Source: Pseudoips prasinana (lineage: Eukaryota > Arthropoda > Insecta > Lepidoptera > Nolidae). Taken from it: a stretch of DNA of 64,000 bases. The stretch covers positions 11,228,001-11,292,000 of the forward strand of contig OX621263.1 in the NCBI GenBank assembly GCA_951640165.1, written 5' to 3'. The position numbers were made by a program, and so were the translations under genes. This document shows positions 16,269 through 49,439 of this stretch, piece by piece (within the stretch, counting starts at the first letter, position 1; each line of letters starts with the position of its first letter). The notes under the pieces were generated by a model that saw only the letters and a list, made by a program, of their open reading frames with translations, did no database searches and was not told the origin of the DNA.

Positions 16269-16853
16269 CAAATAAAAAATTTGGGCATCTTTGGAGAGAC
16301 CTTAATAATAGATGAGCTGCTGCCTCAGAGCACCAGCACCCCATGGTCTCCACGGCAAGAGGACAATACGTCGAGCGGCGTACTTTTTTGCCTCTTTTGA
16401 AAATGAGTGCATACAAATATCGATTCCTTTATTTTTAAATGCTCGGGACTAGTCCCTCCCTCTTACCCACCACTGCAACTCCTGTAAGCCAGGATCAACA
16501 GTGGCACACAATGAACTGACACTGAGCGGTGAAGCTCAGGCATGTCCCGGGGAATCGCTTTAACTGTCTTGGATCCCGCAACGAATTTAATCAGAAACAG
16601 AAAAAAGGAGGAGTTAGAAAATGAATAGTTCCACTTCCCTCCAGAGCAAAGCGGGAGACAGAATGATGTAAAGAGGCTATAGCCTCATAAAATGAGAGAT
16701 TTGCAACTAGAGAAGCCAGCTGCAAAAACACCGAGGATCAATTTAAGGGTCCTAAGTGAGCTGTTATATTTGATTCCAATAGTAGGTATGGCAAAAACGC
16801 TTAAATGCACGGAAGTTGTTCCTTGTTGCTACAAGATCCGTATAATAAACTAC
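16269..16853. other. Unassigned repeat-like sequence left of the gypsy element
   Basis: 16290-16395 encodes on the minus strand CPLAVETMGCWCSEAAAHLL, which resembles a 'P.A.ET.G.W...A' motif of some retroelement polyproteins. A scrap of the RTE flank (GCATACAAATATCGATTCC) is at 16410-16430. The rest (16440-16849) shows no clear coding potential. The last four bases, CTAC at 16850-16853, are the left target-site duplication of the gypsy element. Confidence 0.3.
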
Positions 16854-17420
16854 TGTAGAGCGGGATGGCGAACCAACGGCAATAAAAGCTGGACTCTTGT
16901 TACAATGTTTTATTTTTGATGCCAAATATATCAAATACAATACAATACAAACTATCTTCGTAGAACCTATGAGACCTAGCTAGGTAGATGCACATAAGTC
17001 ACAGAAGTTAGTGCTCGAAGAAGACACTTAAATGCTCAAGCAAATGGTTGAGGCATCAAGCGTGCAGTTATCGAGTCCCTATCCGAAGACACTTTGAACC
17101 TGCGAGGTCATCTCACATCCCCTCACGGGGATGGAAGGATTCGGTTCCGGGGCGTTGGCCCCCCGACCGAGGTAGCCATATCGCTGCCCGTAACTACGGG
17201 CAGGTGGTTGGTGTTGTCCTTTGGACTACGGTAAACGATTCCTTAGGAATTGGTCACAGCTATCGCCGTTTAATGATTTCGGGCCAGCCAATACTGGGGC
17301 AGCAGTGAGGGTGGGGGTTTTTACCTCCCCTTGCTTCACGGCGCCGGGAAATCAAAGCCCTACCGGGTGAGACACCTTGTGGTGAGGCCCAGCAGGAGCC
17401 GACCTACAACCGACGCCGTC

Positions 17421-20124
17421 TTAACGGAGGGGGGTCCCTGGTGGCTGTCCCAGTTGACTGGGGGTGGTGCGAGTTACGGCGTCCGCTGTGGCCAAGTCTC
17501 TAGGGAATCGGTGACGGTCCGGGGGGCGGGCGTGGTAAGGTGCGATGGTCTTCAAGTGGTCCCACGAAGAGGTGTCGGCGCGGCTGAACATTTGGTCCGC
17601 CAAGCGCTGGACGAATGTGTCGATGGACTCCATCCTCAGGTCCCTCTCTATGGTTGAATTCCTCACGTAGCGAGGAGCTGCTATGATGGTGCGTAGTGCC
17701 TGACTTTGCTGTGCTCTGATCTTCTTTCTGCTCGACTCGCTCGTGAGGGCGAACCAAGCTGGGGCGGCGTAGGTCAGGCGTGTGCGTACGTACAGTTTGT
17801 ATACGCACAGCTTGGCTCTGAGAGGGAGGGATGAGCTCAACACCGGGTGGAGCAGTGTGCGGACGGCACGTCCCTGCGCGACAACTTGGGTTGTGTGGGG
17901 GGCCATGCTCAGACGATGGTCTATGGTCACGCCCAGGTACTTTACTCTCGGGGACCACTTGATGGCCTCATTGTTTAGTTTAAGTGGTGGTGGTAGGTGG
18001 GAGTGTCACGTTCACCGACAGCTTCCATTTTTGGAGCCATTCAGGGAGTGCATCTAGGCTGCGCTGTAGTTTTGTGGCGGCGAATGCTGCTTGCATAGAA
18101 GTTGTCAGGTATGCTGCGTCGTCCGCGTACAGCGCAAGCTTCGCGTCTTTGTGGACAGGGATATCGTCGGTGAAACGTGAGTAACACACCGGGGAGAGGC
18201 AGCTACCTTGCGGCACCCCTGCGGTCATTCTGCGTTCCGTTGAGACGCTGTTTTCCACCACAACTCTGAATTTTCGATTGGCGAGAAAACTGGAGACGAT
18301 TTTCACGATGCGACGAGGCGCCGTTGACGTGGAAAGCTTGTAGATTAAGCCCTCGTGCCAAACACGATCGAACGCCTTCTCCATGTCAAGGAATACGGCA
18401 GCGGCATATTCTTTCTTGTTGCGGGCTCCTGCCATATCGTGCAGTACCCTTGACAATTGGAGAGTGGTGGAATGTTCCGACCGAAATCCGAATTGTTCTG
18501 CTCTTGGAGTGATATGTGGAATCAGGTGCCGCAGCAGGAGTACTTCGAACACCTTGGAGGTTGTGGGCAGCAGTGTAATAGGCCGATAGCTTTCAGCTTT
18601 TAAAATATTTTTCCCCGGTTTGGGAAGAAGGATCACGTGACCCATCTTCCAGCAGTCCGGGAATCTGCCTGTCCGGAGGATGCCATTGTACAGCCGGGTT
18701 AAGGTGACAATTGTCTTTGCTGGTAGATGGCGCAGAGCGTTGTTGGTTATTCCGTCTGCGCCAGGGGCTTTTTTGGGCTTCATTCTCCAGATTGCCCGTC
18801 GGACCGCTCCCGGGGAAAAGAAGATGGGGTCTTCAGATGTAGCTATCGGGTCTTTGAAGTAGGCTCCAAGGTGTTTCTCCACTGCTGCGGTATGTGCTGC
18901 ATTGGTGGTTGGATTCGGTCGGAACTGGCGCTCGAGGTGTTCGGCAAAGATCTCCGCGCGGTCCGCCGCACGGTATCTTGGTGTCCCATCTGCGTGAAGA
19001 AGCGGGCGAATGGGGGGAGGGGCGCTTGCTAGCCGACGACAAAGGCGGTGAATTGTCGGCCAGTCATTGTTGGTAGCGGTTTTAGTAATGTGATCCTCCC
19101 ATTTCGCCTCGTTGTGACGTCCTATCTCGGCCTTCACTTGTTCCGCTACACGGTTTAGGCTCATCCTGAGTGTTGGGCAGCGTGTTAGTTGCCACCTCTT
19201 GCGCAGGTCCCTTTTCTTCGCGAGAAGTTGGCGAATGTAAGGAGGCAGAGGTGGTAGTCGCGCTGGTGGTGGTGCTGTGGTAGACGCTGTGGTTAAAGCT
19301 GCCTTTATACTCAGAACGAGCTCTTCAGCTAGTGCTTCTACGTCTTCACCGCTGGTGATGGGCCGAGAGGGGGTAGTAGTCTCCAGTTTACTCGCAAAGA
19401 TTGTCCAATCGGTGTGTTTACGTGGCGCTGGGGGGGCAAGTCGAGCGGTATCAAGTGGTATGACGACGAGTACTGGCTGGTGATCTGAAAGTAGCTCGTC
19501 GTCGATCACCTGTTGTGCGATCTGGCAGTGTAGTCCGCGGTGCACCAAGATATCCAATACATCTGGCATTTGGGTGGTATTTTCCGGGTAATGGGTAGGG
19601 ACTTCAGGGCCGGACACTTTAAAGCCGCGGGCCTCCGCGGTACTTAGGAGTCGCCTTCCTGACGTATTTGTGCGTGAAGAGTTCCACGCTGGGTGCTTGG
19701 CGTTTAAGTCACCGCCTATGATGGTGGGCTGTGGAGAGTCCATTAGAGCGGTGAAATCCGAAGGATGGAGGGGGTCGCCGGGAGCTTTGTATGTGGCAAA
19801 CATTCTTATTTGCTCACCGGCGGCATAGAGTTCTACACCCAGCGCGTAAACTGTTTGTAGTGTCGGCGATGTCAGGGGTTGGTGAACGACTCTCCGTTTA
19901 ACCAGAACTGCCAGACCGCGAATGTGGCGTCCTTCGCTCGACTGCACATCCTGCCTATAAACGAGGAAACCTGGGAATTTGATTTTATCTGCAGGTCCCA
20001 GGTGCGTCTCGCTTATTAGCGCCACGTCAATATCCTGTTCCTGCAGAAGCGGCCGAAGGAGATTTATCTTACTCTTGAGGCCACGAGCATTCCAGTGCAT
20101 GATTTTTATAACCTTTTTATCCAT
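17421..20124 (-). pseudogene. Jockey-clade LINE ORF2 (endonuclease-reverse transcriptase), frameshifted copy in 3' LTR
   Basis: Begins with ATG at 20124 (MDKKVIKIMHWNARGL). It has an apurinic-type endonuclease domain (SETHLGPADK, GGDLNAKHPAW, SDHQPVLV; about residues 1-220) and a reverse transcriptase with LPKPGKN, YRPITLLPTTSKVFE, FLDMEKAFDRVW and YADD (ALYADDAAYL). After residue ~705 a net 29-bp deletion near 18008, relative to the copy at 30896-33628, shifts the frame, so the first frame ends at 17980. The last 169 residues (TRLTYAAPAWF and beyond) are in another frame at 17930-17421. It cannot give the full protein in one frame. It would nick target DNA and copy LINE RNA if whole. Confidence 0.88.
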
Positions 20125-20380
20125 TGTAGATGGACATAAAATCAGCTACCCCACCCATTATAAATGGTAGTGGGCTTGTTCCAGCCTGGAGGGCCCCCAT
20201 TATATCTTGGGCGAGTCTCATGGCGAGGGACAAATATCTGGACATATTCGGGGAGGCCAAAATGTTTGCTAGTCCCTCCATTCCTTGTAGGACATTTTGT
20301 CCAGATACTGTTTGGGAGGTCATACCGGGGCCATCACTTCTAAGTCCCGAGGTCCTTGTCTTAGGATCACCTTTGAACAA
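20117..20380 (-). pseudogene. Jockey LINE ORF1 tail (copy in 3' LTR)
   Basis: 87 codons without an ATG-initiated upstream part; an in-frame TGA lies just upstream, in the LTR's tandem repeats. Its stop TAA overlaps the ORF2 start in ATGGATAA, an arrangement that could couple translation of the two frames. No zinc knuckle is present in this remnant, whereas jockey ORF1 proteins normally have them, so ORF1 is 5'-truncated. The identical tail is at 33621-33884. Confidence 0.6.
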
Positions 20381-20570
20381 TTTATCAGTCGGGGTTTTGT
20401 TAATCGCCGGAGAATCTCAACACCGACTTCTAATTTTTCCTGTGGTGCCATCTATTAGTTGTAGGTGGTACTATTGTTAGAGATTATGTTAACCGCCGGA
20501 GAATCTCACCACCGACTTCTAATCTTTCCTGTGGCGCCATCTGTTATTTGTAGGTGGTATTATTGTTACA

Positions 20571-20585
20571 AATGTCCCCCTATGT
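20571..20585 (-). other. Polypurine tract of the gypsy element
   Basis: The minus strand reads ATAGGGGGACATT immediately before the 3' LTR start TGTAACA. This purine-rich run in the right place is the expected plus-strand primer of reverse transcription. Confidence 0.65.
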
Positions 20586-20620
20586 CCATGCAGTCGACTC
20601 GGCAAATAGGACATGCATCA

Positions 20621-23600
20621 TCAATGTCGTTCATTTGAGCGAGCGATACCGCGGAGTTTGGTTACCCTTGTAGCCATGCCCCTCTTGACAGAGTCTTGTT
20701 TCTTAGGCCTTCCTCTTTTTCTAATTGGCAGTGTTGGCTCGGGGACAGTCCCGTCTTCCGTACAATATCGGGTCAGGGCTGACGTGTGATATATACCCAC
20801 AGGGGTATTAGAGTCAGTGCTGGCAATTTCTAATGAACTAGCACCATGCCTTCGTATTATGACATATGGTCCGTCACGTCTGGGAGCGAGTTTAGAGCTA
20901 AAACCTTGACTAGATTTACTCAATACATGAGAAGTAACCAAAACTAAGTCTCCGAGTTTATAATCCGGACTCAGCTGGCGTCGTTGGTCTACATACTCCT
21001 TTCTCTTTTCCTCTTTCATTTCCTGCACCTCTCGTGCCCTGGCCAATGTGTCAGCCATCATGAGTAAGCGGGGCGTCAGTTCTTTTACGAAATTATCGTT
21101 AAGTACTATTTCTCTGAGATCATGCTGCACATCGTCTGGTGTCCTTAGTTCACGTCCGAATGTTAAGTATGCTGGAGTCTGTCCAGTTGAGCATGACGTT
21201 GCCGTATTCATGGCGAAGCGAATAGAAGGCAATTTCTCCTTCCATGTGACATGATTTTCGCCTACCAGGATTGCCAATTGAGTTTTCAGATCCCGATTTC
21301 TTCGTTCCACCGGATTGGTTTCAGGGTGGTATACCGGAGTAAAGCCATGTTGAATACCCAGACAATAGGTCAGTTGTTGCATAACATTGCTTACAAACTG
21401 GGTGCCGTTATCACTTATAAAACGACGAGGTGTACCGTATCTCTATCGAATTTTGGCACATTCCTCCGCTGTGGCTCGCTCTAGCGGGAATATCTCAACC
21501 CAACGTGTAGCAACATCCTCAATTATGAATATCCAGTCGTGGTTGTCAGCTGTGCGGGGTAAAGGGCCAAACAGGTCAAAGGCGACCACCTCAAAACGCT
21601 GATTCTGGGCAGTGGTTTGGAGTAAGCCGGCAGGCTTTTGGTTTGAGCATTTGTAACGTTGGCATTGTAAACACTGGCGAACATAGGTTTCAATATGTTT
21701 CCTCATTCCTTTCCAGAAGTATCGTCTTGCTACGCGTTCAGTGGTCTTATCTATACCATAGTGTCCAGCAGTCGCTGCATCATGATGAGCAGCAATAATA
21801 TTATCTTGTTCGTGTTTGGGGATTACTAACTGACTAGTTTCCCGATTTGAGTCTGGACCATATCGATACAACAAGCCATTGTTCATATGATAACCTTTCC
21901 CACTCCAGTATCTAGCCTTTTCCTCTCCAGCACTTTCCAAGCACTGCACTATCTTGGCTATCTCCTCGTCCTTATGCTGTTCTTCTCTTATTACTTCTTT
22001 GCTCTTTACAGGCATATCTACAATCACCGTACAAACCCCACAGTCTTCCTCTGTTGTCGGTTCGCAATTAGGACGGGACAAAGAGTCGGCAACGACATTT
22101 GTTTTGCCGGAGATATATTTTATATTGAGATCGTATGGCTGTAGTAGGAGAGCCCATCGAGCTAATCGACCGGTTGGTGACTTTATAGACATGAGCCACC
22201 GTAGGGCTTGATGATCGGTTAAGACGGTTATCTTTGCTCCTTCAATGTAACCTCGGAACTTGGAAACAGCCCATACGACCCCTAGGGCTTCACGCTCAGT
22301 CGTGGAATAGTTGCGCTCAGCCCGGGTTAGGAGTCTGCTAGCATACTCAACAGGGTGTTCGGTTTCACCCTCCCCCTGGACCAGAACTGCACCGAGTGCA
22401 TAATTGCTAGCATCGGTCTTAAGGGTATATGGCTTCGTGTGATCAGCTTGAACCAGCACTGGGGCAGACGTTAGTAATTCGCGAAGTCTAGCGAAAGCAT
22501 TAACTTGATCTTCTTTCCATTCCCAAGTAGCGTTTTTCTTAGTAAGACGTGTTAATGGCTCTGCGATCTTTGCGAAATTTGGTATAAACCGTCTGTACCA
22601 TGAGCACATCTGGACAAATGATAGCAGGTGTTTGAGATTTCGCGGGGGCAGCATGTCTAGGAGCGCACTGACTTTATCTGGGTCAGTTTGTAGGCCAGCA
22701 GCAGTGATGTAGTGACCTAAATATTTCACCTTTTGACAACAGAAGTTGCACTTCTCTCTGTTTGCTACCAAATTGAATTCCTTGAGTTTGTTAAAAACAT
22801 CCTGTAAATCTTTAACGTGGTCTTCAAACGTGGAAGACATAACAATTAGATCATCCAGGTATACAATCAGCTTGATGTGGCTAAGTGAGATGTGAAATCT
22901 ATCCATCATTCGTTGAAATGTCGCTGGAGTATTTCGTAGTCCGAACGGCATTCTTATAAATCGGTACGTCCCAAATGGGCAAACAAAGCTCGTTTTGTCT
23001 CGATGCTCCTCTTTGACGCTTATCTGCCAGTAGCCAGCACGAAGGTCTATCGTACTCATGTACGGTGTCGGCTTAGCACTGTGAAGCAGGTCATCAATTC
23101 TGGGCAGCGGGTAGGCATCAGGAGTCGTGATTGCATTAAGCTGTCGATAGTCTACGCATACTCTTGTGCCTCCGTCTTTCTTTGCTACCATTACCACAGG
23201 AGCGGCCCATGGCGATGAACAAGGTTCGATAACCTTTTCGGATAACATTTTACCAATCTCTTTTCTCAGGATCTCAGTTTTCCCGGGAGACAGACGATAC
23301 GTTGGCACAGAAATTGGTGTGTGGTCCCCTGTTTCGATTGCATGCTCGAATCCTTTCGCCGGGTTCCCATTAGATTTAAACACTTCTTGATTCATGTCCA
23401 AGAAATTTTCAAATGCTGTGACATCGACCGATGAGACTGACGTTGATGGGAAGAGTGTATCATCGACTTCATCCAGCTCACATTCTACGTCATAATCTTG
23501 AAGATTATATCTCGCATCTTCATATAAGGCTTTAAGTATCGGAGAATAATTTCCAGGGTAGTTGAGGTGAGATTTCTTCTTGGGAGGTGAGGACAATTCG

Positions 23601-25111
23601 ATTTTATGAAGAGGACCGTATGAACGAGTCGTATTGCTCTCTTCTGGCAATGACGGTGACATAGAAGGGTCATCATCTGAGACGATAACCGCAAGTTCAG
23701 TATTCTGGCTGTAATTAATAAAGCTCTCTTCATACAGTTCAAAAATTTCCGTAGGATTATCGTGGAAGTTCCAAGTGCTTTGAGCCAAACTCAAGTCGAT
23801 GCGGGAGTCCTGAATAAACCCTACGCCTAACAGAGTTTTATTTCGACGGGATTCGGGGAGTACCAAGAGGGTAGTTGGTATTATATGGTCATTAACCTTA
23901 ATGGGAACCTTCGTTACTAGGACATTTTGACGTCTTGGTATACCATCGGCCATCGTTACTCCGATCTTATGTTCATGGAAGGAATATCCCTTTCTCTTCA
24001 ACTCACAGTAAAGAGAGTATGAGGCAATACTTGATTTAGCACAGGTGTCAAGAAATACTGCCCCATTGACGCCTCCAATTTCCACAAAAATTACTGGTCG
24101 ATCTCTCGCGTCGATGAAGGTATATACGGAACAAAATCCAATTTCTGGATGAGGTCGTTGATTCTTATTCGCATGACACGTTGTGCAATTGGACCTTACT
24201 ACTCCAGGAGCACCGCAGCCATAACACTTAAACTTAGCTGGTTGTAATGGGGCGTGAGTCACCACTGCTTCGGTGATGGTGCCTTCGGCCTTTTCCTTTT
24301 GTTGGTTAGCCCGCTGCAGCTTCCTACAATTTTCTGTAGCGTGTCCGAAGTTGCGGCAAAACCGGCACTTGATTTTCTTGATATCACCTTTGACCGGTAC
24401 TCGGGTTTCCTGCGACTTTGTGGTGCTTTGCCCTATAGCAGCATCCTTTTCATAAATTACGTGTTCCGCCGCCTTCGCTGCCTTCAGAAGGTCTTTAAAG
24501 TCTTTGACATCCGCGCGCGGAACCTTATCCCGAATTTCCAGGCGCAGCAAACCATATATTAAGTCCAGCTGCTGGGTTTCAGTTGGTCCTGGAGCCGGCA
24601 GCTGTGAAAACAACATCCGCTTTTGTCTCACGAATGATTCGGTGGTTGTACTTTTTAATTGCTTCACTTGAGTTATGTCCATATATATTTGGTATGCTTC
24701 GCGGACGGGTGCAAAATTTTCACGCAGTTGCGTTTCGAAGTCTGACCATGATGTCACCTCGCCCTTGACACCTAGCCACCAAACGCCGGCTTCACCCTTC
24801 AACAGAATAGGCAATTCGCTTAAGGCGGTCAAATCGCCTATATCTGCAGACCGCTTGTAGATATTTATTGCCGATAAAAATGCTTCTACCACCTCAGCAT
24901 CTTTCTCGCCACTGTACGTGTATTTGCACGAGATGAATGAGCCCTTTTTAGGCTGTGATGCGGCCGGCATCCTCTCCATAAGCTGCGTAAACTGCTCAGG
25001 TGACAGCATACTGGCACTTTTGGTTTTTCTTGTTTTAACGGTGGTAACACGTCCAGTTCGTGTAACAAAAGTAGGGCGTTTTATCTTTGAAGGCTCGCTT
25101 CTTCCACTCAT
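20621..25111 (-). pseudogene. Ty3/gypsy gag-pol polyprotein with one in-frame stop
   Basis: One frame of 1497 codons from ATG at 25111. The N-terminal 250 residues are a capsid-like gag (GEAGVWWLGV, ENFAPVREAYQIY). Two Cys-rich motifs follow (CRFCRNFGHATENC; CYGCGAPGVVRSNCTTC). The protease has LDTCAKSSIAS, with Cys where Gly is usual after Asp-Thr. The RT has YRQLNAITTPDAYPLPRIDD, MPFGLRNTPATFQ and YLDDLIV. RNase H has KTDASNYALGAVL and LTDHQALRWL. The integrase has the HHCC finger (HHDAATAGHYG ... CLQCQRYKC), VVAFDLFGPLP, DNGTQF and HPETNPVERRNRDLK. A TAG at 21443-21445 (codon 1223) cuts the frame inside the integrase between its first and second catalytic Asp; the frame is otherwise open to 20621. 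The C-terminus carries an AT-hook-like RKRGRPKK. Only a truncated protein without full integrase can be made unless the stop is read through. Confidence 0.9.
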
Positions 25112-25213
25112 GAATTGAAGAGGACGCAGTTCGTAGCGCCAGTCGTCTCAACCTCGAAGAACTTCGTCGTAGCACGATGTTACGAACTTCGTAGCGCTGG
25201 TGACGATACGCGC
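25112..25213 (-). other. Gypsy leader, 3' part, ending in a hAT target duplication
   Basis: Sequence between the gag start and the hAT element. The last eight bases, ATACGCGC at 25206-25213, are repeated exactly at 30294-30301 on the other side of the hAT element. Joined across the insertion the leader would be only about 120 nt. Confidence 0.75.
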
Positions 25214-27854
25214 TAGAGATGGGCGTCGAATCAACGAACGGTTTAAATCGACGGTCGACGTAGAAACAACGCGTAGACGGTCTATCATTCAAGCGTGGAC
25301 TAGTCGATTCGTAGACGGCTAAAATCAAAAGTCCACAACGTTCTTACATACGGCCAACTCAACATCGGTGCTTAAACGTAGTCGGTTATTACAAGTTCGG
25401 GCGTTCATACAAGCGAAATTGAACGTTACGTAAGTAGTAATAGAGTGGATTTTATGTGAAATGGTATAATAATGTGAGGGAGTACTGACAGTCGAATACG
25501 TACACGGTCTATCTAAAAGGGTTGCCAACTGTCTTTGGACAAAAATATACAGATTATAATGTTTTAGTAAGACGAAAAAAGTATTAGAATTAAAAAATAT
25601 TTTTCAATTGTTGTATTTATTTATTGTTTCTTCTCTGGAACACAATCGGAGGAAACTCGTTATGTTAAGATGGTCACCCAACCACAGACCAACCTTGGCA
25701 AGCGTTGCTTAACTTTGAAGATTGATCTGTGTTCTATTACTTACACTGAGCCACCAAAAATTAAAATTACGCAGTGGTTAAAAACTTTTCCTGTATGTAC
25801 CAAAAATAAAATAAAATACGTTTTTATAAAAGTATGGTTGGCAACTCTAAGCTAAGGGCGGCGCGAGCGGCGGGCGAATTAAACCGGTTTATACTGGTTA
25901 GAATTTCTTAGAAGTTGAATATTTGTTGTTATTGATATTTGGATTTTTTATTTTAGTGAACATCGTGACGTAATACGAATCGCGTGCAAGGTCATCGTTG
26001 TGCATAAATCGCGGATTGCAATTTCTTTTAAAATAAAGTTGTAGGTAATTAGTCGAACATTCGAAATTAGTGTATATATTATAGTTATCTGGAGTTCTAA
26101 GTGGTATTTACTATATTAAAAAAAAACTGTGAATTTAATTTAATTTCTGTAAATATTGTAGTTAGGTTAATTGTAAATTATTAAATAAAAATATTAGTGT
26201 GACAAAAAAAATGGCGGGACGTAGTGAATTGTGGCATCATTATGAAAAGGACGCTTTAAGTGGCAAAGCTGTTTGTAACTTATGCAAAGAAAAATTAGCT
26301 TATAAGTCTACTACGGCAAATCTAAAAAGCCACCTAAAACGGAAGCATGTATCTGTTTTTGCGTCACTGTCGTCGCAGGCGCAACCGTCTCAAGCTCGGC
26401 AACAGAAAAGCACTGCGGCTGGTGCTGCAGTTGATTCTTACCATTTACCTGGCCCGAGCACATCTACGAACAGTACGAATGAAACAACAGATGGGACTAT
26501 GATTAACGTATGTAAAAAGCAAAAAATTATGGATACATATATCAATAGTAAAAAAATAAGTAACGAGCAAAAACAAAAAAATAATTTAGATTTGCTTGAT
26601 CTGTGCACGGACAGTTTCCATCCGTTTTCGATTGTTGAAGAAAGAGCCTTCCGAAAATTCTGTCGATGGATTCCCGGCTACCAGCTGCCCACCAGAAAGA
26701 CGCTATCCAACTCAATTATGCAGGAGGCTTATACTAAACTGCATGATGCATTGACTAGCCAATTACGCAAAGAGGTGCATAGTATATGCCTAACTGCTGA
26801 CATGTGGACATCTTTAAAAACTGAGAGCTATATTGCTCTCACAGGACACTACCTTACAGATGATCTAGAGTTAAAAACGGTATTGTTAGGCTGTTGTCAT
26901 TTTCCAGGCCATCACACATCAGAGAACATCGCCGCAGAAATAAGCACATTAGTTGACAAATATGACCTAAAACATAAAGTAAACTTTATGATAACCGACA
27001 ATGCTTCTAATATTGTGAAGGCCGTCAAAGAATTATTGGGGTGGAAGCATTTTGGTTGTTATGCACATAGCCTCAACTTAATAGTTGAACACGCGCTGCA
27101 GTTAACGAAACCCCAAATCGACAAGGTAAAACGTATAGTTGTTCACGTAAAAAAAGTACAGTTTCGTCCGAACGACTTCAAAAATATCAAATTCAACAAG
27201 GTCTAGAACCTAAGCGATTGTGCCAAGCGGTCGAAACTCGCTGGAACTCAACATATTATATGTTGAAAAGATTTGTAGAGTTAGAAGATGCTATTCGATC
27301 TACTTTGGCTTTTGCAGACAGAAATTTACCAACAATTAACCCGGAAGACTGGAAGCTATATGACCAACTTTGCCATGTTCTACGACCATTCGAAGAAATT
27401 TGTGCATCGATGAGCGGCGAAAAGTACATAACGGGAAGTTCAATCATTATTGTGACTCGTTGCTTAAAAGAAGCTTGCCAAAAGCTCTTAAATAAAACCG
27501 ATTTGCTACCTCAAGCATACGATACAGTGCTCTTGTTAAAATCAGGTTTAGAAGAACGATTCCGATTTGTGGAAACTAGTGGCACGTTCGCGTTGGCCAC
27601 TTTTATGGACCCTCGCTTCAAAATGCAAGGTTTTTCGGACCAATCCGAAGCGATGAGAACAAAGGAAACGGTACGCAATTTGGTAGCTGCTTTGATTGGC
27701 GAAAAAGAACATGCCACTCCAGCCACTGTCTCCACTGTCGTCGACGGCGAAGAAGCTGAACCTGATCTCAACCCCTGGAATATCTTCGACAAAATGGTAG
27801 CGTCGAGCACTGCTCAGGGGACACCTCTTTCAAGAGCCATAAAAGAGGTAGATA

Positions 27855-29446
27855 CACACATCAACAAAGTCTAGGGATACGTTATTTTGAAATCAAACAT
27901 GGCTTTATTGTTTAAAACCTATTTAGTTTCCTTAAAAAGTTTATTTACAGATTTAAACCTTGTCTATTCTTTATTCAAAATTTAAAAATTAAAATGAGAA
28001 ACAAATGAAAACACGCAAAGCACAGCGCAATCTTGAGTTGTATCTAATTTCAAGAAGTTGCATTAAAATTTTTTTTGCGTGTTAATTGAAGAAAACCTGA
28101 TAAATTGTTTTATTTTCTTTTCTCAATTGGTTGTGTAAGCTTTTTAGCGTCATGCCACGCCATCATTTGAGTCGAGATGAAATGTTACGGGCAGTTGGCA
28201 TGTTACAAAACGGTGCTATTCAACGCGTCGTTGCTGAGTCTCTGGGCACAAGCCAAAATGTGGTATCCAGGCTGTGGTCACGTTATCGCGCTACTGGAGA
28301 TGTGGCAGAACGGCACACAGGTAGATATCGTGTTACCACTCAGAGACAGGATCGATTTCTCCAAATGACCGCCAGAAGACTACCCAATATCACAGCGATG
28401 CAACTAGTGCAAAGGCTCCAGGAGGGTCAGCAGCTGCTGGTGAGCGACCAAACCGTGCGAAGGAGGCTGCATGAAGTTGGTCTTCATGCTCGCAGACCGC
28501 TACGAGTCCCAGCGCTGCGACGTGGCAATCGCGGTAGGCGACTTTTATGGGCTCAAGAACATTTGACATGGAGTGATCAACAATGGTCATTGGTGCTGTT
28601 CACTGATGAGTCCCGCTATGGATTTCATCCAGATTCGAGACGAACACGCGTTTGGAGAACTCCAGGCAGGGTCAGCCGTCTCCGACATCCACAGGAGGTC
28701 CACTCTTACCAAGGCGGGACAATTATGGTGTGGGCAGGAATACGAATCGGCGGACGAACCCAACTCATTTGGATTCAGGGCAGCATGACTGCCCATAGAT
28801 ACCGTGAGGAGGTAGTAGAACGTGTCATTGTCCCGCTCAGGGCCCTAACGGGGCAAGAATTTCAGCTCATGCATGACAATGCACCTTCCCATACAGCGCG
28901 GCTGGTGAGGGCCGCCCTTCGAGAACACGATGTTCAGGTATTAGATTGGCCTCCACAGTCGCCAGACTTAAACCCAATTGAACACGCCTGGGACATGTTA
29001 CAGCGAAGAGCATTGAGGGATTTTCCGCCCAACTTGACAACAGAAGAACAACTTTTCGAACATTTAAAAAGAACTTGGGACTGCATACCCCAGCAAGACA
29101 TTGACACCTTAATTTTAAGTATGGAAAATCGTTGCCGCTGTGTGATTAATGTTAGAGGAGGAAATACCGATTACTGATTATCAGATTTGGTAAGATTTTT
29201 ATTCATTTAATTCGATTGAATAATTTTATAAGAATAAAATGTTTTTGTTCACTCAGTAATTTTCTATGGCTTAATTAATTTAAGACTTTTATTAATTAGA
29301 AAAACAAAATCGCATCGTGTTGTTAATGTTTAAATATCGGCCATGAAATTATCTTTAATTCTTCCATTTACAGTCATAACAAAATGTTTATAGTTTTCTA
29401 GATAATCAATGAAATGTTCAATATCCCTAGATTGTGTTGATGTGTG
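27855..29446 (+). mobile_element. Tc1-type transposon nested in hAT
   Basis: Terminal inverted repeats start CACACATCAACAAAGTCTAG at the left and CACACATCAACACAATCTAG (complement of the right end), with TA duplicated at 27853-27854 and 29447-29448. Length 1592 bp with one transposase frame. Removing it restores a continuous hAT coding sequence (GAGGTAGATATGTACC). Confidence 0.88.
28152..29177 (+). CDS. Tc1-family transposase (DD34E), intact
   Basis: 341 codons from ATG at 28152 (MPRHHLSRDEMLRAVGM); an upstream TTG is not needed. The N-terminal paired-like helix-turn-helix (AVGMLQNGAIQRVVAESLG, SQNVVSRLWSRYRATG) would bind the inverted repeats. Catalytic residues are visible: first Asp in LFTDESRYGF, second Asp in LMHDNAPSHTAR, and Glu in SPDLNPIEHAWD 34 residues later. 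The WAGI and GRTQL segments between are usual for the family. The length is normal and no stop or shift is seen, so it could be active. Its cut-and-paste product would leave the TA duplication seen here. Confidence 0.92.
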   Translation: MPRHHLSRDEMLRAVGMLQNGAIQRVVAESLGTSQNVVSRLWSRYRATGDVAERHTGRYRVTTQRQDRFLQMTARRLPNITAMQLVQRLQEGQQLLVSDQTVRRRLHEVGLHARRPLRVPALRRGNRGRRLLWAQEHLTWSDQQWSLVLFTDESRYGFHPDSRRTRVWRTPGRVSRLRHPQEVHSYQGGTIMVWAGIRIGGRTQLIWIQGSMTAHRYREEVVERVIVPLRALTGQEFQLMHDNAPSHTARLVRAALREHDVQVLDWPPQSPDLNPIEHAWDMLQRRALRDFPPNLTTEEQLFEHLKRTWDCIPQQDIDTLILSMENRCRCVINVRGGNTDY

Positions 29447-30293
29447 TATGTACCTTTCAGATGAACTCCTGCCCCGGAAGGACCAAAAGGGAAATTTAAC
29501 GTGCCCTTTGGAATGGTGGAGAAAACACCAATTTGTATATCCAAATTTAAAAAAAATATTTGTAACCCGGTGTAACATCGTGGCAACATCCGTTCCGTGC
29601 GAACGAATGTTTTCCAAAACGGGTCTAATTATAAATGAAAGGCGAACGAGACTCACTACAAGCAAAGTCGAGAAGATCATGTTTTTGAATGTCAATTCAA
29701 ATAAAGAAAGGTTCGATGGGTTTTGAGTTCTGGCTGGAGCCATGTATGTATATGTGTACATAGAAAAAAAAAACTAAAAAAAAATACAAATGTAAATATA
29801 AAATATTATGTACATAAAATCAGTTGATCTTCTAAATACGCCTGAAATACAACTTTTCAATTTTTATAATTATTTCAACAACATATGTACATACAATATT
29901 AGTATATAGGTACTACTATTGTTATGTTAGCAAAGTTTTTGTATTTAGCCAGTCCTAAGCCTGGAAAAGTATGAAGGGAAGCTCAACTAATAAGTTTTTT
30001 GTACATTTAAGTTATACTAACAGACATATTCTTACGATAGGCCGATAATAAGGCTGATTTTTTTTAAATATTATTAATTTATGTTCAACCACTCTGTCCG
30101 TCCAGGCGTCTAGCCGTCTACCGTCAACTTATGCAAACATAGTCGAACCCAAAAATCGTCGTATACGTTTAGATTAAACGCATCGTAATCAAGTAAACTA
30201 GTCGACGAAATCAACTAGTTGATCGACTCGTCGATGAACGATGATGAACGGTCTAGTTTCGTTAACAAAAATTACCTCGACGACCCATCGCTA

Positions 30294-30328
30294 ATACGCG
30301 CACGATGGGCCCCTAAGTTGAGCGCCAC
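30294..30328 (-). other. Gypsy leader start with primer-binding site
   Basis: On the minus strand the 5' LTR ends CTCTACA and, after one base, TGGCGCTCAACTTAGGGG follows. TGG at this point is the complement of a tRNA CCA end, so this is the primer-binding site. The tRNA is not assigned. The last eight bases of the segment nearest the hAT (30294-30301) are its target duplication. Confidence 0.7.
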
Positions 30329-30895
30329 TGTAGAGCGGGATGGCGAACCAACGGCAATAAAAGCTGGACTCTTGTTACAATGTTTTATTTTTGATGCCAA
30401 ATATATCAATTACAATACAATACAAACTATCTTCGTAGAACCTATGAGACCTAGCTAGGTAGATGCACATAAGTCACAGAAGTTAGTGCTCGAAGAAGAC
30501 ACTTAAATGCTCAAGCAAATGGTTGAGGCATCAAGCGTGCAGTTATCGAGTCCCTATCCGAAGACACTTTGAACCTGCGAGGTCATCTCACATCCCCTCA
30601 CGGGGATGGAAGGATTCGGTTCCGGGGCGTTGGCCCCCCGACCGAGGTAGCCATATCGCTGCCCGTAACTACGGGCAGGTGGTTGGTGTTGTCCTTTGGA
30701 CTACGGTAAACGATTCCTTAGGAATTGGTCACAGCTATCGCCGTTTAATGATTTCGGGCCAGCCAATACTGGGGCAGCAGTGAGGGTGGGGGTTTTTACC
30801 TCCCCTTGCTTCACGGCGCCGGGAAATCAAAGCCCTACCGGGTGAGACACCTTGTGGTGAGGCCCAGCAGGAGCCGACCTACAACCGACGCCGTC

Positions 30896-33628
30896 TTAAC
30901 GGAGGGGGGTCCCTGGTGGCTGTCCCAGTTGACTGGGGGTGGTGCGAGTTACGGCGTCCGCTGTGGCCAAGTCTCTAGGGAATCGGTGACGGTCCGGGGG
31001 GCGGGCGTGGTAAGGTGCGATGGTCTTCAAGTGGTCCCACGAAGAGGTGTCGGCGCGGCTGAACATTTGGTCCGCCAAGCGCTGGACGAATGTGTCGATG
31101 GACTCCATCCTCAGGTCCCTCTCTATGGTTGAATTCCTCACGTAGCGAGGAGCTGCTATGATGGTGCGTAGTGCCTGACTTTGCTGTGCTCTGATCTTCT
31201 TTCTGCTCAACTCGCTCGTGAGGGCGAACCAAGCTGGGGCGGCGTAGGTCAGGCGTGTGCGTACGTACAGTTTGTATACGCACAGCTTGGCTCTGAGAGG
31301 GAGGGATGAGCTCAACACCGGGTGGAGCAGTGTGCGGACGGCACGTCCCTGCGCGACAACTTGGGTTGTGTGGGGGGCCATGCTCAGACGATGGTCTATG
31401 GTCACGCCCAGGTACTTTACTCTCGGGGACCACTTGATGGCCTCATTGTTTAGTTTAAGTGGTGGTGGTAGGTGGGAGTGACGTCCTACTAAGATAGCTT
31501 GCGTCTTACTCACGTTCACCGACAGCTTCCATTTTTGGAGCCATTCAGGGAGTGCATCTAGGCTGCGCTGTAGTTTTGTGGCGGCGAATGCTGCTTGCAT
31601 AGAAGTTGTCAGGTATGCTGCGTCGTCCGCGTACAGCGCAAGCTTCGCGTCTTTGTGGACAGGGATATCGTCGGTGAAACGTGAGTAACACACCGGGGAG
31701 AGGCAGCTACCTTGCGGCACCCCTGCGGTCATTCTGCGTTCCGTTGAGACGCTGTTTTCCACCACAACTCTGAATTTTCGATTGGCGAGAAAACTGGAGA
31801 CGATTTTCACGATGCGACGAGGCGCCGTTGACGTGGAAAGCTTGTAGATTAAGCCCTCGTGCCAAACACGATCGAACGCCTTCTCCATGTCAAGGAATAC
31901 GGCAGCGGCATATTCTTTCTTGTTGCGGGCTCCTGCCATATCGTGCAGTACCCTTGACAATTGGAGAGTGGTGGAATGTTCCGACCGAAATCCGAATTGT
32001 TCTGCTCTTGGAGTGATATGTGGAATCAGGTGCCGCAGCAGGAGTACTTCGAACACCTTGGAGGTTGTGGGCAGCAGTGTAATAGGCCGATAGCTTTCAG
32101 CTTTTAAAATATTTTTCCCCGGTTTGGGAAGAAGGATCACGTGACCCATCTTCCAGCAGTCCGGGAATCTGCCTGTCCGGAGGATGCCATTGTACAGCCG
32201 GGTTAAGGTGACAATTGTCTTTGCTGGTAGATGGCGCAGAGCGTTGTTGGTTATTCCGTCTGCGCCAGGGGCTTTTTTGGGCTTCATTCTCCAGATTGCC
32301 CGTCGGACCGCTCCCGGGGAAAAGAAGATGGGGTCTTCAGATGTAGCTATCGGGTCTTTGAAGTAGGCTCCAAGGTGTTTCTCCACTGCTGCGGTATGTG
32401 CTGCATTGGTGGTTGGATTCGGTCGGAACTGGCGCTCGAGGTGTTCGGCAAAGATCTCCGCGCGGTCCGCCGCACGGTATCTTGGTGTCCCATCTGCGTG
32501 AAGAAGCGGGCGAATGGGGGGAGGGGCGCTTGCTAGCCGACGACAAAGGCGGTGAATTGTCGGCCAGTCATTGTTGGTAGCGGTTTTAGTGATGTGATCC
32601 TCCCATTTCGCCTCGTTGTGACGTCCTATCTCGGCCTTCACTTGTTCCGCTACACGGTTTAGGCTCATCCTGAGTGTTGGGCAGCGTGTTAGTTGCCACC
32701 TCTTGCGCAGGTCCCTTTTCTTCGCGAGAAGTTGGCGAATGTAAGGAGGCAGAGGTGGTAGTCGCGCTGGTGGTGGTGCTGTGGTAGACGCTGTGGTTAA
32801 AGCTGCCTTTATACTCAGAACGAGCTCTTCAGCTAGTGCTTCTACGTCTTCACCGCTGGTGATGGGCCGAGAGGGGGTAGTAGTCTCCAGTTTACTCGCA
32901 AAGATTGTCCAATCGGTGTGTTTACGTGGCGCTGGGGGGGCAAGTCGAGCGGTATCAAGTGGTATGACGACGAGTACTGGCTGGTGATCTGAAAGTAGCT
33001 CGTCGTCGATCACCTGTTGTGCGATCTGGCAGTGTAGTCCGCGGTGCACCAAGATATCCAATACATCTGGCATTTGGGTGGTATTTTCCGGGTAATGAGT
33101 AGGGACTTCAGGGCCGGACACTTTAAAGCCGCGGGCCTCCGCGGTACTTAGGAGTCGCCTTCCTGACGTATTTGTGCGTGAAGAGTTCCACGCTGGGTGC
33201 TTGGCGTTTAAGTCACCGCCTATGATGGTGGGCTGTGGAGAGTCCATTAGAGCGGTGAAATCCGAAGGATGGAGGGGGTCGCCGGGAGCTTTGTATGTGG
33301 CAAACATTCTTATTTGCTCACCGGCGGCATAGAGTTCTACACCCAGCGCGTAAACTGTTTGTAGTGTCGGCGATGTCAGGGGTTGGTGAACGACTCTCCG
33401 TTTAACCAGAACTGCCAGACCGCGAATGTGGCGTCCTTCGCTCGACTGCACATCCTGCCTATAAACGAGGAAACCTGGGAATTTGATTTTATCTGCAGGT
33501 CCCAGGTGCGTCTCGCTTATTAGCGCCACGTCAATATCCTGTTCCTGCAGAAGCGGCCGAAGGAGATTTATCTTACTCTTGAGGCCACGAGCATTCCAGT
33601 GCATGATTTTTATAACCTTTTTATCCAT
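30896..33628 (-). CDS. Jockey-clade LINE ORF2 (endonuclease-reverse transcriptase), intact, in 5' LTR
   Basis: 910 codons without interruption from ATG at 33628, a normal length for jockey-clade ORF2. The endonuclease domain (about 1-220) has HWNARGL, ISETHLGPADK, GGDLNAKHPAW and SDHQPVLV. A linker follows, then reverse transcriptase (about 440-740) with MKPKKAPGADGI, YRPITLLP, FLDMEKAFDRVW, GVPQGSCLSP and LALYADDAAYL. The C-terminal part has CVYKLYVRTRLTYAAPAWF. Key catalytic residues (Glu in SETH, Asp/Asn in GGDLN, His in SDH, YADD) are present. It lies in the same sense as the gypsy genes and inside its 5' LTR, so LTR-driven transcription could reach it. Whether it is expressed is unknown. 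Confidence 0.9.
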   Translation of the reverse strand: MDKKVIKIMHWNARGLKSKINLLRPLLQEQDIDVALISETHLGPADKIKFPGFLVYRQDVQSSEGRHIRGLAVLVKRRVVHQPLTSPTLQTVYALGVELYAAGEQIRMFATYKAPGDPLHPSDFTALMDSPQPTIIGGDLNAKHPAWNSSRTNTSGRRLLSTAEARGFKVSGPEVPTHYPENTTQMPDVLDILVHRGLHCQIAQQVIDDELLSDHQPVLVVIPLDTARLAPPAPRKHTDWTIFASKLETTTPSRPITSGEDVEALAEELVLSIKAALTTASTTAPPPARLPPLPPYIRQLLAKKRDLRKRWQLTRCPTLRMSLNRVAEQVKAEIGRHNEAKWEDHITKTATNNDWPTIHRLCRRLASAPPPIRPLLHADGTPRYRAADRAEIFAEHLERQFRPNPTTNAAHTAAVEKHLGAYFKDPIATSEDPIFFSPGAVRRAIWRMKPKKAPGADGITNNALRHLPAKTIVTLTRLYNGILRTGRFPDCWKMGHVILLPKPGKNILKAESYRPITLLPTTSKVFEVLLLRHLIPHITPRAEQFGFRSEHSTTLQLSRVLHDMAGARNKKEYAAAVFLDMEKAFDRVWHEGLIYKLSTSTAPRRIVKIVSSFLANRKFRVVVENSVSTERRMTAGVPQGSCLSPVCYSRFTDDIPVHKDAKLALYADDAAYLTTSMQAAFAATKLQRSLDALPEWLQKWKLSVNVSKTQAILVGRHSHLPPPLKLNNEAIKWSPRVKYLGVTIDHRLSMAPHTTQVVAQGRAVRTLLHPVLSSSLPLRAKLCVYKLYVRTRLTYAAPAWFALTSELSRKKIRAQQSQALRTIIAAPRYVRNSTIERDLRMESIDTFVQRLADQMFSRADTSSWDHLKTIAPYHARPPDRHRFPRDLATADAVTRTTPSQLGQPPGTPLR

Positions 33629-33884
33629 TGTAGATGGACATAAAATCAGCTACCCCACCCATTATAAATGGTAGTGGGCTTGTTCCAGCCTGGAGGGCCC
33701 CCATTATATCTTGGGCGAGTCTCATGGCGAGGGACAAATATCTGGACATATTCGGGGAGGCCAAAATGTTTGCTAGTCCCTCCATTCCTTGTAGGACATT
33801 TTGTCCAGATACTGTTTGGGAGGTCATACCGGGGCCATCACTTCTAAGTCCCGAGGTCCTTGTCTTAGGATCACCTTTGAACAA
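33621..33884 (-). pseudogene. Jockey LINE ORF1 tail (copy in 5' LTR)
   Basis: 87 residues (ending ADFMSIYNG) whose stop overlaps the ORF2 start by 8 nt (ATGGATAA). The frame has no ATG upstream before an in-frame TGA. Same remnant as 20117-20380. The upstream ORF1, including any zinc knuckles, is missing in both LTRs, which implies that a 5'-truncated LINE copy entered the LTR. Confidence 0.6.
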
Positions 33885-34216
33885 TTTATCAGTCGGGGTT
33901 TTGTTAATCGCCGGAGAATCTCAACACCGACTTCTAATTTTTCCTGTGGTGCCATCTATTAGTTGTAGGTACTATTGTTAGAGATTTGTAGGTACTATTG
34001 TTAGAGATTATGTTAACCGCCGGAGAATCTCACCACCGACTTCTAATCTTTCCTGTGGCGCCATCTGTTATTTGTAGGTGGTATTATTGTTACACTACTC
34101 TATTTTTCTAATAAGATTGCCTTTGGATTTCTCTATTGACGAGCGGTAACGTGAACGAGCTATTTTGAGATTTATATATGCATTATTTAAAACATCGCCT
34201 ACAATTTTACGTTTTT

Positions 34217-35152
34217 TTAGTTTATTATATTTTTACGTGTTCTCCGAAATTCACATCGAACTTTAATTAAGTAGTTATTCCACCAATCGCATCTTCGAAT
34301 ATTAGTGATAGGGACGCGGCCTATGGCAATATCGGCACAGTAGGTAAAAGTGTCCGACATCATTACAGCACATTCCTCTGTTGTTAGTTCATCCCGGGTG
34401 AAATCCCTGGCATGCGCGGCAAAAAGAGCTCTGAAAAAATCCCAATCGGCCCCTTTGAGCCGATATCTATAGTTACCGTAAATAGCCGTAGGTCTTTGTG
34501 CCAACCGAGGAACAAACTCGTACACGATTAAGCGGTGATCACTGGATGAAGCGTCAGGCAAAACACGCCATCCATCTATTCGGACGTCTGAGCTTGAAAA
34601 CGTGACGTCAATAAAAGATTCGCCAGTAGGGCTACAATAAGTAGGCGGTGCATCAGGAGTGTTATGTATTGATAGATTCATCTCAGCGACGAAATCTTCG
34701 ACGGCGTTCCGCCGTTCTGTATCGCTTGAACGGTATTTGCCATACCATAACGTAGAGGATGCGTTAACATCTGCGCCAATAATAATTTTGTGTCCTTTGA
34801 GGGACATCAAAACATGGCGCAAGTGATGTAAATGGGGACCGACAGGATCTGAATACTGAAAATAACAGCTCACTACGTAAACTTTCCAGGATGGGGATGA
34901 TATTTCAGCGACAGCACAGTGTGACGTCATGAGGTTTCGCATAGCGCTTACCGTAAAATTAGTACGCGTTACGTAAATAGCAGCCCGTGATTTGTTGTCT
35001 AGCTGCACCAATTTATTTTTTAAACGCGCATATTGATATTGTTCTTGTACAAGCACTATATCTAAGTTGTATTCATTAACTAAAGTTTCCAACTCTGATG
35101 TCGCAACCCTATCGTTGTGAAGATTTAGCTGCCCTATTTTTAAGTAAGCCAT
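34217..35152 (-). pseudogene. R1-like LINE ORF2, endonuclease domain (truncated)
   Basis: Starts with ATG at 35152, one base after the ORF1 stop (TAATATGG). 311 residues of endonuclease: LKIGQLNLHNDRVATSEL, DIVLVQEQY, IIGADVNASSTLWY, FIDVTFSS and SSDHRLIVYE are the family's blocks, with Glu, Asp/Asn and His in place. 'QLNL.....A..EL' and 'G.D.NA....WG/Y' are typical of R1-clade endonucleases. The frame stops at 34217. A +1 shift lets coding continue (KIVGDVLNNAYINLKIARSR) to the gypsy insertion at 34098. There is no reverse transcriptase. Confidence 0.82.
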
Positions 35153-35153
35153 A

Positions 35154-36473
35154 TTAGTATTTGGTATTTAGCACTAACTGCTCAAGTTTATGCTTAAATG
35201 TGGGGCAGTTGTCCGAGCCGCATTTGTGGTCGTGAGGTTTTTTATATGCTTTACACGATGCACAAACTGGTTTAAATTCTGGGTCATTGTGATGCTTACA
35301 TGATTTTGTGGGATGTGCTTCTGCGCATAAGGCACAGGTAGGTAATTTATTATTACAGTACTTGAAAACATGCCCATATTGCTGGCAGTTTAAACACCGA
35401 ACTACCTCTAAATCATCAATAAAGCGGCATGTAGCCCAGTCGATGAAAAGTTTTTCTTTAGTGCTGACTAAATGTTTTCTAATCTCCGGTTCGAGCTCAA
35501 TTCCCACCCACTTGCGCCCATTAGCTACGTTACCCTTGCGCACAATTTTAGTTTTAGATGTAAAATCGTCTTCGCTGACTTTAAGATCACTATCTTTGAT
35601 ATTTTGCCTGTATAACGCCGTTAAGAAGACCTGGTCGTCCATTGACGACGGTATATCTTTTATAAGTATGCGCGGTCGTCGCCCGGATGGAGTTTGAAGT
35701 TTTAAACCCGCCGAACGAATGGCCTCGACAGGTCTAATTTTATTGAGTTGGGTTTCATTTGCCACTCGGAGTACAACGCCAGAATTGGAAGTTTTTTTAA
35801 CGCCTACTATTTGAAAACCGTCGTCCGCGGGTTTTATAGCCTTCATAAGCGCTTCCTTGGTCGCCGACGAAGTCGCGTACTCCGCTGATAGCTCAGCGGT
35901 GGGATACGCAATAATTGAAGGAACCGGTTTTCGCGTCTGTACTATGGGGGCGGCGGTTTTTTTCGGTAAATGCAGTTTTAATTGTTCCGCGTACGTAGGA
36001 ATCTCAGAATTGGTTTTATTTACGCAAAGATCTAACTGACGTTCTGCGTTCGCCAATTTAGTTTCATTGCATGAAGATTTAAGCGCAAGTAATGAAATAA
36101 TACTGGTAAGGCGCTGCGTACAATCCATCACCGATAGCTTATTCGCGATATTCATACCCGAGTTGGAATCACTGACTAATTCGTTAACCTTTGACAGATA
36201 AACGGAAGCTTGTGTCACAAGATCGCAATAATTATATTCTGCACTGTTTGTATCGCATATATTTAATGAAGACGAATAATCGGATTGAGATCCCCGAAAA
36301 CGTTTTATGTCCGATTCCTGTTGACCATCGGGAGTACAAAACGTCGGTGACGCATCGTCTAACACTCGTTTGTTGAAGCCTGAAGGGGGCGTTCTGGGAG
36401 TCTGTTTACTTCTCCCAAATACGTTTCGCCCTCTATCGGGGGGGACATCATTTATTGTTGACATGTTATTCAC
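35154..36473 (-). CDS. R1-like LINE ORF1, zinc-knuckle nucleic-acid-binding protein
   Basis: 439 codons from ATG at 36473. The N-terminal half is polar. A central region (about 200-330) resembles the esterase/RRM-like PRE/C2 part of LINE ORF1 proteins (GVVLRVANETQLNKI, PRILIKDIPSSMDDQVFL). The C-terminus has CCHC knuckles: CLNCQQYGHVFKYC, CALCAEAHPTKSC and a third Cys/His cluster CASCKAYKKPHDHKC. This is the usual ORF1 of R1 and jockey groups, which packages LINE RNA. It appears intact, one base upstream of ORF2. It may be translated, but the element lacks RT. Confidence 0.85.
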   Translation of the reverse strand: MNNMSTINDVPPDRGRNVFGRSKQTPRTPPSGFNKRVLDDASPTFCTPDGQQESDIKRFRGSQSDYSSSLNICDTNSAEYNYCDLVTQASVYLSKVNELVSDSNSGMNIANKLSVMDCTQRLTSIISLLALKSSCNETKLANAERQLDLCVNKTNSEIPTYAEQLKLHLPKKTAAPIVQTRKPVPSIIAYPTAELSAEYATSSATKEALMKAIKPADDGFQIVGVKKTSNSGVVLRVANETQLNKIRPVEAIRSAGLKLQTPSGRRPRILIKDIPSSMDDQVFLTALYRQNIKDSDLKVSEDDFTSKTKIVRKGNVANGRKWVGIELEPEIRKHLVSTKEKLFIDWATCRFIDDLEVVRCLNCQQYGHVFKYCNNKLPTCALCAEAHPTKSCKHHNDPEFKPVCASCKAYKKPHDHKCGSDNCPTFKHKLEQLVLNTKY

Positions 36474-36733
36474 ACGAAATAAGCTAGCGCTTTAATGTAA
36501 ACAGCACGATAACTAATTTAGCACGATAACAAGTAACTGTGACTATGACGCGGTACCCTCACAAGAAAAAAGTTAAACTTACTCACCGAACGATAATTTG
36601 AACAAAAATCCAGATATTACTTATTAAAACACTTAAAAAACTTACAAATTGTAGTATTTAGCACTAACACTAAAGCTAGAAACAAAACACAGGTCACAAA
36701 ACAATCACGAAATAGCAGAAAAATAATATTATT

Positions 36734-37119
36734 TCACAGCGAACCTCCGACGCACTGAGCCGTAGCGTAGCGGGAAGGGAAATATCGATTCCTTCTGTAA
36801 AAGGAAGTCTTCTGTTTAAAATCGTGGTTAATAGAGAAAGCATATGAGCCGAAAGGCGTCCACAGCTGGACAAAGGCCTCCCCCAAAGATCTCCACAATC
36901 GCCGGTCTTGCGCTATCCGCATCCAGCAGTTTCCAGTGACCCGCACAAGATCATCGGTCCATCTTGTAGGTGGCCTGCCCACGCTGCGTCTTCCGGTTTG
37001 TAAATGCCAACCAATATACTACATATCTATTTTTTTTATATACATATTTTTTTTCTTTTGTAAATAAATATAGAGTATGTATACAAATATAAAATTACAC
37101 CCAGACTAATGACAAATAG
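36734..37119 (-). pseudogene. RTE-clade LINE 3' fragment (second copy)
   Basis: The minus frame 36982-36734 encodes GRPPTRWTDDLVRVTGNCWM, AQDRRLWRSLGEAFVQLW, the C-terminal end of RTE-type reverse transcriptase. From about 36777 to 37118 it matches 15793-16105, including the T-rich 3' tail and ACCCAGACTAATGACAAATAG. There the match ends and the minisatellite begins. Confidence 0.75.

Positions 37120-42341: not shown

Positions 42342-49439
<7,098 letters not shown>

Follow-up and report, generated by a model that had tools for sequence, protein, structure and literature searches.

Long terminal repeats (LTRs) that contain foreign sequence are known from TRIMs. In Helenus, Ajax and Cassandra, sequence derived from small RNAs or SINEs (tRNA- or 5S-like) lies inside the LTRs, and insertion of a SINE into the LTR of a TRIM has been proposed as the origin of such an arrangement (Kojima, 2024; PMC10886601). 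The gypsy element that we describe here likewise holds inserted sequence within its LTRs. As the TRIM families are described there, however, their inserts are short promoter-type sequences carried by multi-copy families, whereas in our case the insert is a 3.3-kb LINE with an endonuclease-reverse transcriptase (EN-RT) gene, and one such element was found. Our case also differs from these families, as they are presented in that account, in that empty LTRs, a target-site duplication (TSD) and sister copies of the LINE all occur in the same genome.

The components of the locus are otherwise familiar. The element shares with lepidopteran Ty3/gypsy elements that have a single gag-pol frame the same domains (Gag, RT, RNase H and integrase) and a 4-bp TSD, but differs from them in LTRs that are ~8 times longer because of the LINE, in a hAT element in its leader and in one in-frame stop. 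The LINE resembles jockey-like LINEs in its ORFs (ORF1, and an ORF2 with both EN and RT), but none of the copies read has a poly(A) tail. As in ordinary nested insertions, one transposable element lies inside another with its own TSD; however, a nested insertion is normally present in one LTR only, and this LINE is in both. Judged by title or abstract, no paper found in the open-licence literature, outside which most subscription papers lie, describes a LINE doubled in this way. The DNA analyzed, referred to below as the window, is a 64,000-nucleotide stretch of the Pseudoips prasinana assembly.

Results

Anatomy of the gypsy element

A Ty3/gypsy element spans the minus strand of the window from 34094 to 16854 (Table 1). 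Its gag-pol is one frame, interrupted by a single in-frame stop in the integrase. The Pfam domains follow the order Ty3_capsid/Retrotrans_gag, RVT_1, RT_RNaseH and Integrase_H2C2, with rve after the stop, where it scores under its curated Pfam cut-off in the split-off piece of integrase. This order of gag, RT, RNase H and integrase, together with TG..CA LTRs and a short TSD, identifies the element as Ty3/gypsy, in agreement with the initial annotation, and the LTR ends and outer CTAC that it had named are in place. The PBS and PPT that it had located beside the LTRs are likewise present as candidates, the latter a short purine-rich stretch. The gypsy RT region is 90% identical to an unnamed protein and 86% identical to proteins of Choristoneura fumiferana and Colias eurytheme, and for the transposon proteins of the window the best of the named matches are from Lepidoptera.

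The LINE is followed 185 bases downstream by an AATAAA, which is 55 bases from the LTR end; within the LINE there is no AATAAA and one ATTAAA, near the 3′ end. At the LTR start are ~89-bp tandem repeats (20395–20568 and 33899–34092), the number of which seemingly varies between copies (the LTRs of the copy L012 are 537 bp).

Table 1. Features of the LINE-loaded gypsy element and the elements nested in it (window coordinates)
Feature	Position	Strand	Basis or remark
5′ LTR, LINE-loaded, 3766 bp	30329–34094	−	begins TGTAAC, ends CTCTACA
3′ LTR, LINE-loaded, 3717 bp	16854–20570	−	begins TGTAAC, ends CTCTACA
Gypsy 4-bp TSD, CTAC	16850–16853 and 34095–34098	.	outside both LTR ends
PBS-like stretch TGGCGCTCAACTTAGGGGC, candidate	30309–30327	−	adjoins 5′ LTR
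PPT-like purine-rich stretch, short	20571–20584	−	adjoins 3′ LTR
Gypsy gag, RT, RNase H and integrase zinc domain, 1234 codons	21443–25147	−	
Remaining integrase, 273 codons, same frame, split off by one in-frame stop	20621–21442	−	
Jockey-like LINE in 5′ LTR, 5′-truncated, without poly(A), ending ..CTCGCAG(G)	30575–33874	−	empty sites; LINE ends in other copies
Same LINE in 3′ LTR, with 29-bp deletion	17100–20370	−	LTR comparison, empty sites
LINE ORF2 open frame in 5′ LTR, 917 codons stop to stop, 910 from ATG; EN and RT, YADD	30896–33649	−	
LINE ORF2 in 3′ LTR, frame broken by 29-bp deletion	17980–20145	−	
LINE TSD GTTCAAAG, 3′ side, 5′ LTR	30567–30574	−	
LINE TSD GTTCAAAG, 5′ side, 5′ LTR	33875–33882	−	
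LINE TSD GTTCAAAG, 3′ side, 3′ LTR	17092–17099	−	
LINE TSD GTTCAAAG, 5′ side, 3′ LTR	20371–20378	−	
hAT element (BED/DUF659 transposase) in gypsy leader	25214–30293	+	8-bp TSD ATACGCGC at 25206–25213 and 30294–30301
Tc1/mariner element nested in hAT	27855–29446	+	TA target

The stop in integrase and the hAT element in the leader probably leave the present copy unable to move on its own. Elsewhere, at L020 (G000:C19:27353000-27361000), a hAT element that shares ~99% identity with the leader copy adjoins an LTR of the same gypsy family and lacks the Tc1 element. A hAT common to the two loci at the same leader position was ruled out: because the end of the L020 hAT joins different DNA, this copy appears to be an independent insertion.

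Other repeats surround the element. Beside the gypsy insertion, the minus strand carries another LINE fragment at 34220–36491 (an endonuclease domain and an adjacent 445-aa frame). At 37119–38131, there are ~53 copies of a 19-bp minisatellite, GCCCCCAAAAATCTGGGTG, with long open frames on both strands; a Pfam PrP8 match there is probably spurious. Further along are a hAT-like transposase frame (43358–45235) and a mariner (Mos1-type) transposase frame (61042–62100).

The LINE occupies the same base in both LTRs

Each LTR reads up to GTTCAAAG, continues into 3.27–3.30 kb of LINE and then resumes with GTTCAAAG again, such that both hold the LINE at the identical base, in sense orientation, between 8-bp duplications of the LTR. 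The claim of the initial annotation that the LINE is part of both LTRs is thus upheld, but its description of the LINE as whole is not: the start falls inside ORF1, of which only the last part is kept, and only the 5′ LTR has a complete ORF2. The reading of ORF2 as endonuclease plus reverse transcriptase stands for the 5′ LTR, where EN, RT and YADD are all found; in the 3′ LTR the frame is broken by the 29-bp deletion.

The three best-scoring proteins for ORF2, two of them noctuid, are 57–62% identical over 89–97% of the query, and one relative is annotated as an X-element. By the names and identity of its matches the LINE appears to be jockey-like, with the qualification that a poly(A) tail, which is usual for Jockey, is absent from both LTRs and from all 10 copies read outside the window. 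Scanning viral contigs with ORF2 gave no match.

Relatives of the gypsy element have empty sites

Using the first 180 bp of the LTR, the query proposed in the initial annotation for locating other copies, we obtained 44 matches in the source assembly (1.126 Gb) and fetched and read 20 loci around them. Five are two-LTR gypsy copies (L009–L013), with LTRs of 443–537 bp, and none of the five contains the LINE. When the window element is included, all six two-LTR elements have 4-bp TSDs. The uninterrupted LTR site, ATAAATTGTTCAAAGTGTCTTCGG, was present at 23 sites in 18 of the 20 loci when up to 6 mismatches were allowed (four are exact); at this threshold no such site was found in L017. The empty sites and LINE-free two-LTR copies rule out a gypsy family that always carries the LINE. 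Among the four other copies for which the gag-pol frame is listed, it is open over 1513 codons in L010 and L011 and not in the other two; proteins could therefore come in trans.

Two of the fetched loci have features of their own. L025 contains an unrelated insert of ~0.5 kb (~4690–5175), only a few bases from the LTR target site of the LINE. Its ends are inverted (GGATGGCGAT../..ATCGCCATCC), and it appears to be accompanied by an imperfect duplication. L013 (G000:C25:11511000-11520999) is a shortened copy with a matching 4-bp TSD, ACAT, and LTRs of two subtypes that differ at 8 of 443 positions. Its PBS position reads TGGCGCCCAACGTGGGGC; the window element differs there.

Ends of the LINE in other copies

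Ten other LINE copies were found with a query containing the LINE 3′ end. All ten terminate in CTCGCAG (nine with an extra G). The 5′ start points of LINE copies vary, with L041 and L042 being longer and containing more of ORF1 than the LTR copy. Flanking duplications were present in three of four copies checked: L031 and L038 show clean ones, in L043 a 13–14 base repeat is separated from the LINE by ~9 bases, and L037 is ambiguous. Given a TSD, a constant 3′ end and variable 5′ truncation, we infer that the LINE probably entered the LTR by target-primed insertion.

LTR elements capture RNA sequences by template switching, and the gypsy reverse transcriptase might instead have switched to LINE RNA during LTR synthesis, leaving the LINE captured in the cDNA. 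A template-switching model has been put forward for complex insertions (PMC1950507). However, an 8-bp LTR duplication around the LINE is not expected from such capture and speaks strongly against it; neither the exact LINE 3′ terminus nor the 5′ truncation is expected, and both are seen here and in the other copies. Because the LINE lies between 8-bp LTR duplications at the same base, we favor target-primed insertion and reject template switching as highly improbable.

The 5′ part of the LINE matched five other places in the search with the 5′ junction, and the start of ORF2 is visible in four. Three of these four have a frame break near codon 115–118. The fourth, L048 read with L033, has an open ORF2 that is nearly identical across the 890 codons visible; ~20 codons fall in the gap between the two loci. 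Since three other copies are broken and that of L048 and L033 is open and nearly identical, the intact ORF2 in the 5′ LTR has the appearance expected of a recent insertion from a young family, and is not evidence of selection.

Divergence of the LTRs

Over 3717 aligned bases, 4 substitutions separate the two LTRs; in addition, the 5′ LTR has a 20-bp duplication and the 3′ LTR has the 29-bp deletion. As the repeats are >99% identical, they could be the product of segmental duplication or an assembly artefact, a concern that the initial annotation had itself raised. However, the ends of the repeat are the ends of the LTRs, the differing flanks fit the positions of PBS, PPT and TSD, and the LTR copies have different substitutions and indels. 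Since the LTRs differ both in these changes and in their flanks, the concern is not borne out, and we reject this explanation as having a negligible chance of being correct.

The LTR part has diverged in line with the LINE part, as the LTRs differ at 1 of 446 positions in the former and 3 of 3271 in the latter (Fisher p = 0.40). We also compared the LINE with 11 other copies, only 2–3 of which cover its 5′ half. No private substitution is common to both LTRs; two are found in the 5′ LTR and one in the 3′ LTR. At the three LINE positions that differ between the LTRs, one LTR is derived each time, judged against 3, 3 and 11 covering copies. The lack of a LINE substitution private to both LTR copies suggests that the doubling followed LINE insertion closely, within the limit set by the 2–3 copies that cover the 5′ half. 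The private gag-pol changes of the window element comprise 7 synonymous, 12 nonsynonymous and 1 stop; the proportion that is nonsynonymous or stop (13/20; p = 0.31 against an assumed neutral 75%) is weak for separating the rival explanations.

Searches for loaded copies elsewhere

The LINE/LTR junctions were used to search the source assembly, and 40 of 131 and 40 of 85 first-look candidates were scored; whole matches should rank first. The 3′ junction was whole in 2 of 40 matches, which are the two LTRs of the window element (27 others contained LINE only and 11 LTR only), and the 5′ junction in 2 of 61, again these two LTRs. Two weaker LTR matches to the 5′ junction, C30 and C12 (88%), extend ~20 bases past it; the C30 place is L018, an empty site on reading, and C12 is known from the match alone. 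Among the scored candidates in this assembly, no further loaded copy was found, and no loaded progenitor, whether with one LTR or both holding the LINE. The earlier suggestion that the LINE spreads by riding on the gypsy element finds no support among these candidates, of which only the window element carries it.

The lack of a loaded progenitor among these candidates counts against retrotransposition of a loaded element and in favor of another order of events, in which the LINE entered one LTR of a resident gypsy element and was copied to the other by LTR-LTR gene conversion or by unequal exchange between alleles. Members of this gypsy family may undergo LTR conversion or recombination, since L013 pairs two LTR subtypes within one TSD, which suggests LTR exchange. 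There is also a precedent in a canid retroviral lineage, for which putative conversion between LTRs after insertion has been described (PMC6407205). However, gene conversion must transfer a 3.3-kb unpaired block while keeping the outer parts of the LTRs nearly identical: judged from gag-pol changes, an old insertion would predict ~3.9 LTR differences outside the LINE, and 1 is observed (P = 0.096, a weak comparison and one that is blind to conversion of the whole LTR). It also needs one event more than retrotransposition requires. On balance, we consider gene conversion, the main rival, unlikely.

Discussion

We think it quite probable that the LINE inserted in one LTR and that the loaded gypsy element then retrotransposed, thereby bringing the LINE into both LTRs. 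The presence of the LINE at the same base in both LTRs, the CTAC TSD of the element itself and the empty relatives bear out the earlier proposal of one LINE insertion doubled, with LTR replication as the likeliest cause.

How would such an element arise? A young, tailless jockey-like LINE would enter one gypsy LTR by target-primed reverse transcription, in sense orientation, at GTTCAAAG near the middle of the ~440-bp LTR. The loaded element would be transcribed through the LINE and then reverse-transcribed, and strand transfer during LTR synthesis would put the LINE in both LTRs of the new copy, provided that it lay in U3 of the parent's 3′ LTR, in U5 of the parent's 5′ LTR or in R. This copy would integrate at the window locus with duplication of CTAC, after which the LTRs would diverge. 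The hAT element in the leader, with the Tc1/mariner element inside it, is a further nested insertion, which may be older or younger than that of the LINE. Doubling by reverse transcription rather than by gene conversion is the likeliest course. If the integrase stop is older than the move, help in trans is needed.

It is also conceivable, in line with the idea in the initial annotation of an LTR promoter that drives ORF2 in trans, that gypsy transcripts give rise to protein from the complete ORF2 of the 5′ LTR, and that this protein helps to mobilize LINE copies in trans. We regard this as very doubtful; if true, the LTR element would both carry and promote another retrotransposon with a different mechanism.

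Doubling of this kind is expected from the replication of LTR elements; it is for the LINE as the doubled insert that no precedent was found, by title or abstract, in the open-licence literature. One consequence concerns annotation, as software that detects LTRs automatically could report the locus as a family with long LTRs in which an endonuclease-reverse transcriptase is encoded. For the biology of these elements, the locus indicates that an LTR may accept a 3.3-kb foreign retrotransposon, becoming eightfold longer, and still be copied, such that one LINE insertion becomes two. It may serve as a natural test of where the LINE lay with respect to U3, R and U5, and of the amount of additional RNA that a gypsy element can tolerate.
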